From: Aquibaculum arenosum
GTDB taxonomy: Bacteria > Pseudomonadota > Alphaproteobacteria > Kiloniellales > DSM-21159
Direction of reading: 5' to 3'
Assembly (NCBI RefSeq): GCF_029222965.1
Contig: NZ_JARHUD010000001.1
Location: 248,001-312,000 of the forward strand
DNA: 64,000 nucleotides
Part shown: piece by piece, positions 43,676 through 48,863 of the stretch
How positions within the stretch are numbered: the first letter of the stretch is position 1
Layout: each line of letters begins with the position of its first letter
Program-made: the position numbers and the translations under genes
The notes under the pieces: generated by a model
Told to the model about the DNA's origin: nothing
Databases searched by the model: none
The model's input: only the letters and a program-made list of their open reading frames with translations

Positions 43676-45346
43676 TCAGCGGGCTTCCGCCTCCGTCCTG
43701 ATGGCGGTCAGCGTCTTGGCCGGGGTGATCGCGTCGGGATCGATCTGCAGTTCGAGCAGCGCCGGCTTGCCGGACTCCCAGGCTCGTTCAAAGGCCGCCT
43801 CGAACTGTTCGGTATGGGTGACCGTCTCGCCGTAGGCGCCATAGGCGCGGGCAAGCGCCGCGAAGTCGGGATTCTTCAGATCGGTGGCGCTGACCCGTCG
43901 CGGATAGTCCCGCTCCTGATGCATGCGGATGGTGCCGTACATGCCGTTGTTCACCAGGATGATGATGATCGGCAGGTCGTACTGCACCGCCGTCGCCAGC
44001 TCCTGCCCGTTCATCATGAAGCAGCCGTCGCCGGCAAAGGCCACCACCGGGCGGTCACGGTGGAGCCGCTTGGCGGCCACGGCGGCCGGCGTGCCGTAGC
44101 CCATGGAGCCGGACGTGGGGGCGAGCTGGGTGTGATCGCCGCGATAACGGTAGAAGCGGTGCACCCAGGCGGTGTAGTTGCCGGCGCCGTTGCAGATCAC
44201 CGTCTCCGGCGGCAGGCGCTCGCGCAGCCAGCCGAGTATCTCGCCGAGCTGCAGTTCGCCCGGAATCGTCGGCGGTGTGGTCCAGGCCAGGTAGTCCTCA
44301 CGCGCCTGGCGTGTGGCCTCGGCCCAGGGGCGTGCGCTCTTCGGCTCCAACTCGGCCAGAGCGCGCAGGGCCGGCGCCGCACCGGCGTTGATCGCAAGCG
44401 TCGGCTGATAGACGCGGCCCAGCTCCTCGGCGCCAGCGTAGACGTGCACCAGCTTCTGCTTGGGGCGGGGGATGTCGAGCAGGGTGTAGCCGCTGCTGGT
44501 CATCTCGCCCAGGCGGGCGCCGATCACCAGCAGGAGGTCGGCCTCCTTGACTCGCTTTGCCAGTTTCGGGTTCACGCCGATGCCCACGTCGCCGACATAG
44601 TTCGGATGGCTGTTGTCGATGCAGTCCTGACGGCGGAAAACCGCCGCAACCGGCAGGTCCCAGGCTTCGGCGAAACGCTGCAGGTCGGCACGAGCCTCTG
44701 GCGTGCGTCCGTCGCCGACCATCACCAGCGGCCTTTCCGCCTGGCTCAACAGCTCGGCCAGGCGCTCGATCTGCTTGGCGCCGGGGTGGGGCTGCACGGG
44801 CTCGAAGGTCTCGACCCCCTTGGGCTCGACCATGTCTCGCAGCATGTCTTCCGGCAGCGCCAGCACCACCGGCCCCGGGCGACCGCTGGTGGCGGTGTAG
44901 AAGGCCCGGGTGACGAACTCGGGAATGCGCTCGGCCTGATCGATCTGGGCGGCCCACTTCACCATGGGGCCGAAGACCTTGCGATAGTCGATCTCCTGGA
45001 AGGCTTCGCGCTCGAAGTCGCCCCGCGCGACCTGACCGACGAAGAGAATCATCGGGGTGGAATCCTGCGCGGCGATGTGCACGCCGGGGCTGGCGTTGGT
45101 GGCGCCGGGACCGCGGGTCACGAAGCAGATGCCGGGCCGGCCCGTCATCTTGCCATAGGCATCGGCCATCATCGCGGCACCACCCTCCTGGCGGCACACG
45201 GTGACCTCGATGGCCGTGCTGTCGTGCAGTGCGTCCAGCACCGCGAGATAGCTCTCGCCGGGTACGCAGTAGAGATGATCGACGCCGTGGGTTTCGAGAC
45301 AGTCGACCAGAAGCTGGCCGCCGGTCCGCATATTCGGTTTCTGCAT
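43676..45346 (-). CDS. Thiamine-diphosphate-dependent enzyme (acetolactate synthase-like)
   Basis: A 556-residue ThDP enzyme with the three expected domains. The N-terminal Pyr domain holds the catalytic Glu in VTVCRQEGGAAMMADAYG. The middle domain follows, and the C-terminal PP domain carries AGDGCFMMNGQELATAV ending in VNNGMYGTIR, the ThDP-magnesium motif. The layout matches acetolactate synthase large subunits, but no small regulatory subunit is adjacent, so sulfoacetaldehyde acetyltransferase, glyoxylate carboligase or another decarboxylase remain possible. The ATG at 45346 is preferred over an upstream ATG at 45427 that adds 27 unconserved residues. It appears monocistronic. Confidence 0.85.
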   Translation of the reverse strand: MQKPNMRTGGQLLVDCLETHGVDHLYCVPGESYLAVLDALHDSTAIEVTVCRQEGGAAMMADAYGKMTGRPGICFVTRGPGATNASPGVHIAAQDSTPMILFVGQVARGDFEREAFQEIDYRKVFGPMVKWAAQIDQAERIPEFVTRAFYTATSGRPGPVVLALPEDMLRDMVEPKGVETFEPVQPHPGAKQIERLAELLSQAERPLVMVGDGRTPEARADLQRFAEAWDLPVAAVFRRQDCIDNSHPNYVGDVGIGVNPKLAKRVKEADLLLVIGARLGEMTSSGYTLLDIPRPKQKLVHVYAGAEELGRVYQPTLAINAGAAPALRALAELEPKSARPWAEATRQAREDYLAWTTPPTIPGELQLGEILGWLRERLPPETVICNGAGNYTAWVHRFYRYRGDHTQLAPTSGSMGYGTPAAVAAKRLHRDRPVVAFAGDGCFMMNGQELATAVQYDLPIIIILVNNGMYGTIRMHQERDYPRRVSATDLKNPDFAALARAYGAYGETVTHTEQFEAAFERAWESGKPALLELQIDPDAITPAKTLTAIRTEAEAR

Positions 45347-45479: not shown

Positions 45480-46397
45480 CTACATTGCTTCTTGGTTTGT
45501 GGTTATGTCGCTGGCCGGCAGGGGCGTGAGCAGCGGCACGTTGTCCATGCCGCCAGACGTGCTCTCCCCGGTTTCGGCAGTCATCCCGCCACCGGTCGGC
45601 GGCATCATGGTGATGGGGGCGCCGCGCAAGGCACCGCGAACCTGGGCAGCGACGGACTGCGCCGAACGCCCGGCGTCCCGGCCGGTGAGTGCAAAGGTGA
45701 TGGGGCCCTCGCGCCAATAGGCCAGGGTGCCGCTGTCCTGCTGGGTGCTGGAGATCGCCGGTGGGGTGCCCCCCGCACCGGGCAGCAGGAAGAGGCTGGT
45801 GCGTTCCCCGGCACCGTCCGTATAGATCAACTGCACGCCGGGAATGCCCCTCTCGTCCGTGCCACGCATGCCGACCAGGCGCAGGCCCAGGGGCGAGAGG
45901 TCGGGGGTGGGGATTCGCAGGGTGACGTCGCCCTCCTGCTCGGCGGCGACGGCCTTGGGGATCAGGGCCGAACTGTCCACGTTGCTGGCGGCGACTTCCG
46001 GTTTTGGCGACCAGTCGGAGTGCAGCGCCAGCGACGCCTCCACCAGCGCCTGTGATGGCTGTGGCGGTCCGACACTGGACTCATTGAGACTCCAGCCGAG
46101 AAAGCCGGCGGCCGCGAGCGATGCCGCAAAGGCGCCGTAGCGCAGCGAGCGTCTCCAGAAGGGAGGCGCCGAGCGCGGCTCTAACGCCGCTGCCAACCGA
46201 TCGGGCAGGGGTTCGGTCACGGTGTGGTCGTAGGCGGCCCGGATGATCCGGTTCTGTGCCTCGTAATCCGCCACGCGTTGTGCGGCATGGGGATTGTCGC
46301 GCAGGTATGCGGCCACCTCCTCCCGCCGCAGGGGATCCAGAAGTCCGTCTGCATAGGCGAGGAGATCGAGCTCTTCGATCGTCCGGCCTTGTGTCAC
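45480..46397 (-). CDS. Anti-sigma factor (membrane-anchored)
   Basis: A 305-residue protein with an N-terminal anti-sigma-like helical domain (ELDLLAYADGLLDPLRREEV, AAYLRDNPHAAQRVADYEAQ) and no zinc Cys-x2-Cys. A single membrane helix (residues 84-104, YGAFAASLAAAGFLGWSL) and a periplasmic domain with low-complexity ends follow. The gene overlaps the ECF sigma gene with ATGA, the standard arrangement for a cognate pair. Release of the sigma factor on an envelope signal is the family inference. Confidence 0.85.
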   Translation of the reverse strand: MTQGRTIEELDLLAYADGLLDPLRREEVAAYLRDNPHAAQRVADYEAQNRIIRAAYDHTVTEPLPDRLAAALEPRSAPPFWRRSLRYGAFAASLAAAGFLGWSLNESSVGPPQPSQALVEASLALHSDWSPKPEVAASNVDSSALIPKAVAAEQEGDVTLRIPTPDLSPLGLRLVGMRGTDERGIPGVQLIYTDGAGERTSLFLLPGAGGTPPAISSTQQDSGTLAYWREGPITFALTGRDAGRSAQSVAAQVRGALRGAPITMMPPTGGGMTAETGESTSGGMDNVPLLTPLPASDITTNQEAM

Positions 46398-46912
46398 TTC
46401 ACCCTCCTCACTGGCGGCACCCCCGCAGCGGCACCGCCGGTCAATCCGCGTAGTGCTTCACGTCCGCGCGACAGGCGGGACTTTAAGGTGCCCACTTCTA
46501 CGCCGAGTACTTGGGCGGCCTCGTCGTAGGGCAAACCTTCCAGCGCCACCAGAAGAATGGCATCGCGTTGGCCAGCCGGCAATTTGTCGAGCGCTTCCAG
46601 CACTGTCGCGCACTCCATGTGATGGTGCTGGCGCGCCGGCATCGAGGGATGCGGCACGACAGTGTCGTCTATCGACTGCGGCGGCGGAGCGTAGCGATTC
46701 TTGCGCCCGTTCAGATAGACCGTATAGACGATCCGCAGCAGCCAGCCGCGCAGACTTGCCTGTTTGCGGACCTGCTGTTGCTTGCGCAGGGCGCGCTCCA
46801 AGGCATCCTGCACCAGATCGTCAGCGCGTGTCGGATCCTTGACCAGCGCCCGGGCATAGCGCCGCAGTCGCGGTGTTTCACGAGCGATCAGCCAGCTTAC
46901 GTCGTCGGGCAA
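46394..46912 (-). CDS. ECF RNA polymerase sigma factor
   Basis: A 172-residue ECF sigma-70 family protein with region 2 (RYARALVKDPTRADDLVQDALERAL) represented in the first 40 residues and region 4 in the last 60 (EGLPYDEAAQVLGVEVGTLK, SRLSRGREAL). The start is a TTG at 46912, chosen because AGGAGAAG lies seven bases upstream; a longer frame reaches 47065 without a good site. It is coupled to the anti-sigma gene and has a GGAAC-N18-GTC element upstream, the same as in the divergent DUF4168 gene. Target genes are otherwise unknown. Confidence 0.88.
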   Translation of the reverse strand: MPDDVSWLIARETPRLRRYARALVKDPTRADDLVQDALERALRKQQQVRKQASLRGWLLRIVYTVYLNGRKNRYAPPPQSIDDTVVPHPSMPARQHHHMECATVLEALDKLPAGQRDAILLVALEGLPYDEAAQVLGVEVGTLKSRLSRGREALRGLTGGAAAGVPPVRRVK

Positions 46913-46953: not shown

Positions 46954-46979
46954 GACAGGCTGAGGCCACAGGCGGTTCC
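46954..46979 (-). promoter_or_regulatory. Candidate ECF promoter of the sigma/anti-sigma operon
   Basis: Read on the minus strand, GGAAC (46979-46975) is followed 18 bases later by GTC (46956-46954), about 42 bases before the TTG start. GGAAC is a frequent ECF -35 element. The same spacing occurs in front of the divergent gene at 47218, which suggests autoregulation by the encoded sigma factor. Confidence 0.45.
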
Positions 46980-47103
46980 CTTCCCCTGCAAAAAGACTTG
47001 GGGAGGCAGACAGCCGGGGTAAAGGCTGCCGGGGCGATTGGGGCATGTTGGGCCCGTCCGGGCATCTCGGGATGCGGCGGGTTCAGGACTTTTTATTTTT
47101 CTT

Positions 47104-47129
47104 GGAACGAAGCGCAGCGGACCCTTGTC
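47104..47129 (+). promoter_or_regulatory. Candidate ECF promoter of the DUF4168 gene
   Basis: GGAAC at 47104-47108 is followed 18 bases later by GTC at 47127-47129, matching the element of the divergent sigma operon. It lies about 90 bases before the start codon of the secreted protein gene. Confidence 0.45.
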
Positions 47130-47217: not shown

Positions 47218-47610
47218 ATGAACATGCCTATCCGCACTCTGCTCGCCGGTACCGCTGCTGTTGCGCTGATGGCCGGAGCCGCTTTCGTGGCGCCGACGCC
47301 CGTTACCGCGCAGACCGAAATGCAGCAGCAGGAAGCCCCTGCGGTAGACTATGATACCCAGACGCTGCAGACCTACGCCGCGGCCATGACCGAGGTCGTC
47401 GAAATCGGCGAGCGCATGCAGCCCTCGATTGCCGAAGCTGAATCGGAAGAGGAAGCCGAAGAGATCTGGGTGGAGATGCAGGAAGAGATGGTCTCCGCCG
47501 TCGAGCAGCAGGGTATGAGCGTCGACGAGTACAACCAAATCACTCAGCAGGCCCAGATGGATCCCGATCTCGCAGCCGAGATCAATGAGATGGTCCAGAA
47601 CGGCCAGTAA
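47218..47610 (+). CDS. Secreted DUF4168 domain protein
   Basis: A 130-residue exported protein with a signal peptide (1-31, ending VTAQ) and an acidic helical DUF4168 domain. The features are YDTQTLQTYAAAMTEVVEIG near residue 45, an acidic EAESEEEAEEIW, and the C-terminal MSVDEYNQITQQAQMDPDLA. The domain's function is unknown. The gene is divergent from the ECF sigma operon and shares its GGAAC-N18-GTC element, so an extracytoplasmic stress response target is likely. GAAAGGAGAA precedes the ATG at 47218. Confidence 0.8.
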   Translation: MNMPIRTLLAGTAAVALMAGAAFVAPTPVTAQTEMQQQEAPAVDYDTQTLQTYAAAMTEVVEIGERMQPSIAEAESEEEAEEIWVEMQEEMVSAVEQQGMSVDEYNQITQQAQMDPDLAAEINEMVQNGQ

Positions 47611-47851: not shown

Positions 47852-48004
47852 TTACTCGGGCGCCGTCGGGCTGCTCATGCCGCCGCCGGTGTCACCAGGC
47901 TCTTGCATCGCCGGGGGCTGGTTGTCGACATCGTCGGCCGGCTCGCAGGCGGCAAGGAACATGGCGCCGAAGAAGGTGAGAGCGATCATCCAGATGCGAG
48001 TCAT
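47852..48004 (-). CDS. Small lipoprotein (50 aa), unknown function
   Basis: A 50-codon gene with a complete signal: the product starts MTRIWMIALTFFGAMFLAAC, ending in a perfect lipobox LAAC with Cys20. The remaining 30 residues are acidic and proline-rich (EPADDVDNQPPAMQEPG). The ATG at 48004 is preceded by AAGGAG seven bases upstream, and a perfect intrinsic terminator follows at 47791-47822. Together these make translation very likely although the gene is short. It converges with the DUF4168 gene. Function is unknown. Confidence 0.8.
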   Translation of the reverse strand: MTRIWMIALTFFGAMFLAACEPADDVDNQPPAMQEPGDTGGGMSSPTAPE

Positions 48005-48224
48005 GGTGGCTCCTTTCGGTCAGTGGACCTAGTTTCCGGTCCCGAAACCCTTAGGGCTTCCGAGCAGGGCCCGGATGAATAACGCCATGACCAAATGACA
48101 GAGCTCCAGAGCGATAGGTTCCTCAGAATCGCTTGGGGCTTTATAGTGTCACGCAGTGCAATTTCTGTCCCAGGTTTAAGGCCAAAGCTGCAGGCAGCAA
48201 GGTTGCATGGGTAGTGGAGAGGAT

Positions 48225-48863
48225 ATGACTGACATCATCGTTGACCGCCGCCGCGATCTCTTGCTGCTGGTAGACCCCCAGTACGACTTCTGCCCGGGTG
48301 GGGAGCTGGCGGTCCCCGGGGGAGACGAGATTTTCGAGCCCATGCGTCGGTTGGTGCCGCACTTCACAAATGTTGCGGTCACTCAGGATTGGCACCCGCC
48401 GGGCCACAGCTCTTTTGCCAGCAGTTACCCCGACAAGCAGCCCTTCGAGACCGTGGAACTGGGCTACGGCACCCAGGTGCTTTGGCCCGACCACTGTGTG
48501 CAGGGCACAGGGGGCGCCGCTTTCCATTCGGCGGCGCCGGTGGACGCGGCCCAGGTGGTCGTTCGCAAGGGCTATCACCGCGAGATCGATTCCTACTCCG
48601 CCTTCTTCGAGAACGACCATCGCACAGCCACCGGTCTTGCCGGCTATCTGCGCGAACGCGGGATCGAGCGGGTCTTTCTGGCCGGCCTAGCCTATGATTT
48701 CTGCGTGCTCTGGTCGGCGCAGGACGCGCGCAAGTGCGGTTTCGAGGTGGTGGTGGTAGCGGATGCCTGCCGCGCCATCGATCTGAACGGCTCCGCGGCG
48801 GCTGCCACGGAGTCCTTGCGTGCGGTCGGCGCGCTCCTAACTGATAGCCAGAACATCGGCTGA
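48225..48863 (+). CDS. pncA: Nicotinamidase (PncA-like)
   Basis: Nicotinamidase converts nicotinamide to nicotinate in NAD salvage. The 212-residue protein has catalytic Asp in LLLVDPQYDFCPGG, metal-binding TQDWHPPGHSSFA, WPDHCVQGT, the lysine in VVRKGYHREIDSYS and the nucleophile Cys in GLAYDFCVLWSA. The ATG at 48225 follows GTGGAGAGG. It is related at superfamily level to the two cysteine hydrolases at 33297 and 41948 but has the PncA-specific metal site. It is followed by a small hypothetical gene 16 bases later. Confidence 0.93.
   Translation: MTDIIVDRRRDLLLLVDPQYDFCPGGELAVPGGDEIFEPMRRLVPHFTNVAVTQDWHPPGHSSFASSYPDKQPFETVELGYGTQVLWPDHCVQGTGGAAFHSAAPVDAAQVVVRKGYHREIDSYSAFFENDHRTATGLAGYLRERGIERVFLAGLAYDFCVLWSAQDARKCGFEVVVVADACRAIDLNGSAAAATESLRAVGALLTDSQNIG

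Follow-up and report, generated by a model that had tools for sequence, protein, structure and literature searches.

What does an ECF sigma factor encoded next to a DUF4168 gene in Aquibaculum arenosum control, and how does it recognize its promoters? The question is raised by a divergent gene arrangement in the window, the whole 64,000-nucleotide stretch of DNA that was analysed, in which a sigma/anti-sigma operon on one strand and the DUF4168 gene on the other are each preceded by GGAAC, 18 bases and GTC. From these two sites the preliminary description had proposed that the sigma factor activates its own operon together with a neighbouring envelope gene, and that the shared motif could be used to find other members of the regulon. 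Judging from sequence comparison, we think it very likely that the sigma factor directs its own operon, the DUF4168 gene and a small lipoprotein gene through GGAAC-N18-GTC, under a membrane anti-sigma factor that answers to an envelope signal.

Between the sigma start (46912, minus strand) and the DUF4168 start (47218, plus strand) lie 305 bases with two outward-facing GGAAC-N18-GTC sites, whose positions (46954-46979, minus strand; 47104-47129, plus strand) proved exact on re-checking. These two members stand, but a third site had been overlooked, at 48097-48122 on the minus strand, 1 kb away, where it precedes a 50-aa lipoprotein ORF by 92 bp (Table 1). The 172-aa sigma factor matches the Pfam families Sigma70_r4_2, Sigma70_r2 and PhyR_sigma2 above cut-off (PhyR_sigma2 at 4.8e-16) and has sigma2 and sigma4 domains only, as befits an ECF (group 4 sigma-70) factor. 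On one side, a gene for a TPP-dependent enzyme (43676-45346, minus strand; NF006052, 922.8 bits) lies 133 bp downstream of the anti-sigma gene, an arrangement kept in G001, a genome of the same genus; it could be reached by read-through from the sigma promoter. On the other, a nicotinamidase gene (48225-48863, plus strand; NF008623 above cut-off) adjoins the locus, and a similar ORF is found near the sigma homologue in loci L054 and L056, which come from another family.

Table 1. Genes, putative promoter elements and related features of the sigma locus
Feature	Position	Strand	Remarks
ECF sigma gene	46394..46912	-	172 aa, TTG start; start backed by homologues
Anti-sigma gene	45480..46397	-	305 aa; three-part layout predicted
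DUF4168 gene	47218..47610	+	130 aa, probable signal peptide
Small lipoprotein gene	47852..48004	-	50 aa, lipobox-like LAAC
-35 GGAAC, sigma/anti-sigma operon promoter	46975..46979	-	kept in 9/9 clade genomes
-10 GTC, sigma/anti-sigma operon promoter	46954..46956	-	41 bp upstream of sigma start codon
-35 GGAAC, DUF4168 promoter	47104..47108	+	kept in 9/9 clade genomes
-10 GTC, DUF4168 promoter	47127..47129	+	88 bp upstream of ATG
-35 GGAAC, lipoprotein promoter	48118..48122	-	kept in G001, G003 and G008
-10 GTC, lipoprotein promoter	48097..48099	-	92 bp upstream of ATG
K144 codon, sigma4 recognition helix	46481..46483	-	covaries with fifth base of -35 box
Second-ECF site, GGAACTTT...GCGTC	G000:C12:365669-365694		conserved in G001

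It is conceivable that such sites are simply chance matches of a short motif. The window holds eight of them against 1.93 expected from dinucleotide shuffles, a number that none of 100 shuffles reached. What speaks for chance is the studied genome as a whole (G000, 3.49 Mb): it contains 100 matches, or about 1.8 per 64 kb, of which most lie inside genes and 19 outside, and the backward-read pattern occurs 212 times, so that the motif is not in excess across the genome. With genes called by our own codon-usage script rather than a standard gene finder, 12 of the 100 matches fall outside genes and at most 300 bp upstream of one, compared with 11 of 217 for other spacers (10-17 and 19-26, same DNA; p 0.036); without the three local sites the figure is 9 of 97 (p 0.21). 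The genome scan suggested in the preliminary description thus favours upstream placement when the local sites are counted and ceases to do so when they are not, and the idea that the motif would find other members is the weaker part of the proposal: it is too short by itself, and its upstream enrichment is weak and, without the local sites, non-significant. For the same reasons a genome scan alone neither proves nor finds a regulon.

The local sites exceed chance because they are conserved in relatives. Among 21 upstream regions of 260 bp each, taken from relatives and G000, 18 carry the N18 spacer (sigma 7/9, DUF4168 7/8, lipoprotein 4/4), when mononucleotide shuffles put the chance of such a site at about 0.004 per region; of the remaining spacers between 8 and 29, none is seen in more than one region of any gene class, save N17, which two DUF4168 regions have. 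When the 18 N18 sites are aligned, GGAAC is most often followed by C (12/18) and GTC most often preceded by T (14/18). This conservation, which extends across genera, already refutes a chance origin, to which we assign practically no probability.

Four genomes retain the full set of three sites, G000 and G001 in one genus and G003 and G008 in another; G001, G003 and G008 also possess lipoprotein homologues. G001 preserves the gene order as well as the sites, while the intergenic stretch between its sigma and DUF4168 genes has no blastn match that covers it. The sigma and DUF4168 sites are both preserved in G054, G075, G006 and G018; no lipoprotein gene was found in the examined loci of these four. 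Altogether, the motif precedes the sigma operon in 9/9 and the DUF4168 gene in 9/9 of the genomes in which DUF4168 accompanies this sigma clade. Two of them depart in detail. In G018 DUF4168 is encoded downstream of the anti-sigma gene rather than diverging from the operon, and N17 replaces N18 at both sites. In G263 the DUF4168 site is kept and the sigma-side motif is located 497 bp upstream, ahead of an extra ORF of 144 aa that looks secreted, sits between promoter and sigma gene and overlaps the sigma start. This locus (L264) was considered as a counter-example and ruled out, as a stretch wider than 260 bp reveals both sites. Secreted-looking ORFs occur in the sigma/DUF4168 neighbourhood of both L264 (-431 to +4 relative to the sigma start, G263) and L059 (-1288 to -566, G006); their products, with signal-peptide-like starts, presumably resemble PRC-barrel proteins. 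Autoregulation with a neighbouring envelope target, as first proposed, is thus supported by a motif conserved in both directions across genera.

Does the motif belong to the sigma factor or to DUF4168? The nine sigma factors that adjoin DUF4168 form a single branch (support 97/88, and 96/84 with residue 144 masked). The DUF4168 protein itself scores 61.8 bits against PF13767, for which the cut-off is 25.8, and belongs to this Pfam family. A survey of the order identified 24 DUF4168 genes in 18 of 61 genomes. All seven that adjoin the sigma clade carry GGAAC-N17/18-GTC no more than 300 bp from the domain, at 243-276 bp ahead of it, as opposed to none of the 17 others (p 3e-6, uncorrected for kinship). 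The 17 include L263, which lies about 1.5 kb from the sigma gene of G006 and is the second DUF4168 gene there, and in two of the 17 the motif occurs at a greater distance, 502 and 516 bp ahead of the domain. On these sequences the motif goes with the sigma clade, not with DUF4168 as such. The proposed common regulon gains from this distribution and from G018, where the spacers of the two sites shift jointly. The predicted model of DUF4168 comprises four helices and has no match in the PDB better than E 1.4; the word 'DUF4168' was not found in the literature searched (exclusive of supplements, preprints and most subscription papers). The link to the sigma clade gives this uncharacterised family a regulatory context and a regulatory handle.

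If the sigma factor reads the motif, the two should change together. Residue 144 lies in the recognition helix, GT-L/V-K/R/M-SR, and is K in the studied sigma factor and M in most homologues. At 56 loci the 260 bp upstream of the sigma gene were searched, on the sigma strand, for GGAAC or GGAAT followed by N17/18 and GTC or GTT. The 15 K/R sigma factors have GGAAC in nine cases and GGAAT in none, six lacking a qualifying site (one of these, L061, is truncated by a contig end), whereas the 41 M sigma factors have GGAAT in 11 cases and GGAAC in one, with 29 lacking a site. Where an own promoter is detectable, then, K/R goes with GGAAC in 9/9 and M with GGAAT in 11/12 (Fisher p 3e-5, kinship ignored). 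These counts rest on the original 260-bp search, and so omit the site that the wider search revealed in L264; GGAAA and GGAAG matches, present at few loci, were also left out. Eight of the nine K/R-GGAAC cases fall in the DUF4168-linked clade, and in the ninth, L272, the site is an N17-GTT within an inverted repeat. The exception, L056, is an M-type with GGAAC whose near-identical relatives L054 and L055 have no such site. To account for K/R against M, two changes are needed on the full tree and four on the tree with residue 144 masked; for the 21 rows in which a base could be called, two residue changes and three base changes are counted. With so few changes, the counts are not independent and represent a handful of events rather than twenty.

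A structural counterpart comes from a modelling and mutagenesis study (PMC11588781): in the Corynebacterium glutamicum sigma D model, R170 contacts the G at template -31, equivalent to the C of GTAAC, and in that of sigma H, M170 faces A(-31), equivalent to the T of GGAAT. The C. glutamicum stretch TVMSR given there aligns with TLKSR of the studied sigma factor. It appears from the alignments that the fifth base of the -35 box tracks recognition-helix residue 144, in line with the published residue-base contact, as would be expected if this sigma factor reads the motif. The clade would offer a natural switch of the -35 code (residue M to K/R, base T to C) that is addressable by single substitutions.

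The same data bear on another reading, in which the sites are conserved operators of a different regulator acting on the divergent genes rather than sigma promoters. It draws its support from the fact that the case for promoters is one of sequence conservation. However, GGAAC, 17-18 bases, GTC and the distances to the start codons fit a sigma promoter, the sites are directional, separate and one per gene, and their fifth base covaries with residue 144, all of which makes the operator reading highly improbable.

More serious is the scenario that the promoters are genuine ECF promoters read mainly or also by a second ECF factor, which is EcfG-like (G000 C12:365872; L091/L041), with DUF4168 and the lipoprotein in its own or a shared regulon. 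The sequence upstream of this gene, GGAACTTT-N15-GTC, fits GGAAC-N18-GTC and is kept in G001, so the second ECF could share the three local promoters; its recognition helix, moreover, has K at the position aligned to residue 144. Yet the DUF4168 motif follows the neighbouring sigma clade, and the G018 spacer changes jointly at sigma and DUF4168. Nor were the usual partners of such a factor recognized in the genome: no full or canonical PhyR and no NepR exceeds its cut-off. NF006623 gave 17 matches, none above cut-off; the best PF18557 match (22.3 bits, below 25.7) lies in the studied anti-sigma factor; and PF22233 passes only in two ECF factors of the genome, the studied sigma factor being one of them. 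All three models found Caulobacter, which served as control. Cross-talk with the second ECF is possible, but by itself it would leave the link between the motif and the local sigma clade unexplained, and we consider it unlikely that this factor reads these promoters, whether as the main sigma factor or as an additional one. The neighbouring sigma factor is retained as the probable reader of the three sites.

Further members were sought by comparing the 100 matches of G000 with the 96/101 matches of G001. Orthologous upstream sites were shared by DUF4168, the lipoprotein, a DUF418 membrane protein, the second ECF and sigma, the sigma pair being taken from the separate locus comparison. The membrane protein gene has an upstream GGAACC-N15-CTGTCA in both genomes (L103, G000:C23:198776-198801; L223/L290, G001:C157:11718-11743), and by eye we take its product to be DUF418-like. 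On this shared site, it is probably a fourth regulon member in this genus. Its homologues in G003 and G008 are distant (31%) and have no GGAAC-N18-GTC in the 400 bp upstream, which makes DUF418 at most a genus-level member. A cysteine-rich secreted protein, L109 (C24:90230), was considered since a similar gene adjoins sigma in G006, and was dismissed: GGAAC is absent from the 400 bp that precede its G001 counterpart, L299. L109 belongs to a family of short, secreted, cysteine-rich proteins with L298 (G006:C39:31381-31647), L300, L294 and L295, one of which adjoins the G006 sigma gene.

How might this sigma factor be held in check? The AlphaFold model of the anti-sigma factor has a mean pLDDT of 64, higher within its domains. 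Residues 4-75 are predicted to be helical and resemble the ChrR anti-sigma domain (Z 8.3, rmsd 8.7, 69 residues), and a predicted helix at residues 83-99 is taken as the membrane helix from the model rather than from a topology program. Residues of about 160-259 may resemble the C-terminal domain of RseB/MucB (residues about 218-316 of the RseB reference; rmsd 3.1, 93 residues, Z 9.0, a little above the best Z of 7-8 that is usual for models lacking a clear match); Foldseek gives this domain E 1.3e-3, with nothing under 1e-3, and the ten-residue pLDDT means over 161-260 range from 73 to 88. By sequence, the RseB family is not among the Pfam matches of the anti-sigma factor, and part of the protein searched against the PDB has no match up to E 5. 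The only Pfam match, which is sub-threshold, is to NepR, and it recurs in 5/10 homologous anti-sigma factors; a PDB NepR profile matches at E 0.06. The NepR-like stretch (residues 53-70, around EPLPDRLAAAL), placed between anti-sigma domain and membrane helix, could mean that NepR and these membrane anti-sigma factors share an origin. An Hx3Cx2C motif was not found in the sequence, and 2/10 homologues have a weak zf-HC2 match. We infer from the model that RseA-like and RseB-like logic could be combined within one anti-sigma chain, a predicted union that provides a testable idea about envelope sensing by ECF26-type factors.

On the sequence comparisons, the system is most likely an autoregulated, membrane-tethered envelope-stress sigma factor with a small regulon. 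The sigma factor and its single-pass anti-sigma factor would be co-transcribed, and in resting cells the cytoplasmic domain of the latter would keep the former at the membrane. An envelope signal, sensed directly or via the RseB/MucB-C-like periplasmic domain, would then set the sigma factor free, probably through regulated proteolysis of the kind known for RseA. The free sigma factor would guide RNA polymerase to GGAAC-N18-GTC, with the -35 box read partly by K144 and GTC serving as the -10 element, and raise expression of its own operon, of DUF4168 on the divergent side and of the lipoprotein gene, and in this genus probably of the DUF418 membrane protein gene too. Beyond the two-site proposal, this interpretation takes in a third gene and offers an explanation of the -35 box at residue level.

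Several known systems show similarities to this arrangement. E. coli RseB protects RseA against cleavage. The predicted periplasmic domain of the studied anti-sigma factor may resemble the C-terminal domain of RseB/MucB, known from E. coli and from AlgU-MucA-MucB of Pseudomonas, but unlike in the RpoE-RseA-RseB and AlgU-MucA-MucB systems, the RseB-like domain would reside inside the anti-sigma factor itself, and the sigma factor belongs to another group. E. coli sigma E also shares the GGAAC -35 and GTC -10 elements, as seen in the PDB templates listed in PMC11588781. The resemblance of predicted residues 4-75 to an anti-sigma domain leads to SigE-ChrR of Rhodobacter sphaeroides, yet the studied anti-sigma factor is predicted to be membrane-bound and is without Hx3Cx2C. 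ChrR is a soluble zinc protein. EcfG (ECF15) factors in general use a GGAAC -35 box, and the likeness to them extends to the related sigma2 domain and to the sub-threshold NepR-like stretch of the anti-sigma factors; they differ in having the soluble NepR in place of an anti-sigma factor predicted to be membrane-bound.

A close parallel is the ECF26/EcfR group of Sinorhizobium meliloti (RpoE1, RpoE3, RpoE4 and RpoE6), which has in common with the studied locus the operon, autoregulation, the anti-sigma layout and a -10 GT. PMC6180224 gives GGAATA as the -35 and GT as the -10 element, autoregulation for all except RpoE3, and an anti-sigma factor with an N-terminal, a single membrane and a periplasmic domain. 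By alignment and model, the studied anti-sigma factor would have the same build, encoded downstream of sigma with an N-terminal domain, one membrane helix and a periplasmic part. At the own and neighbouring promoters, the -10 element fits the ECF26 pattern reported there and the -35 box does not, being GGAAC instead of GGAATA, and residue 144 is K/R rather than M; the rpoE4 promoter in the table of PMC6180224, counted by eye, is GGAAT-N18-GTC. Envelope genes adjoin ECF26 factors there too, with a putative lipoprotein, SMc01418, ahead of rpoE1 and a serine protease gene divergent from rpoE6 (PMC6180224), and RpoE1 and RpoE4 respond to sulfite according to PMC3511301; in place of sulfite oxidase or protease, the studied sigma factor has DUF4168 and small lipoprotein genes linked to it. 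The pSymA sigma factor in L289, which is only 35% identical to the studied one and sits on a long branch, is taken as RpoE6 because its divergent site matches the SMa0142 promoter shown in PMC6180224. Given these likenesses and the differing -35 element, the locus appears ECF26-like with a changed -35 box. One could propose that an ECF26-like lineage was rewired from GGAAT to GGAAC, largely by one M to K/R substitution in the recognition helix, that it acquired a dedicated envelope regulon (DUF4168, small lipoprotein) under a one-piece RseA-like/RseB-like anti-sigma factor, and that in the studied genome, where no PhyR-NepR pair was recognized, some of the general stress response may fall to it, a combination that we offer tentatively and that, taken jointly, is somewhat doubtful. 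While systems of this kind are well known, the clade, its regulon and the changed box are new within the literature searched, and the comparison assigns a conserved mini-regulon to a sigma clade without a description there.
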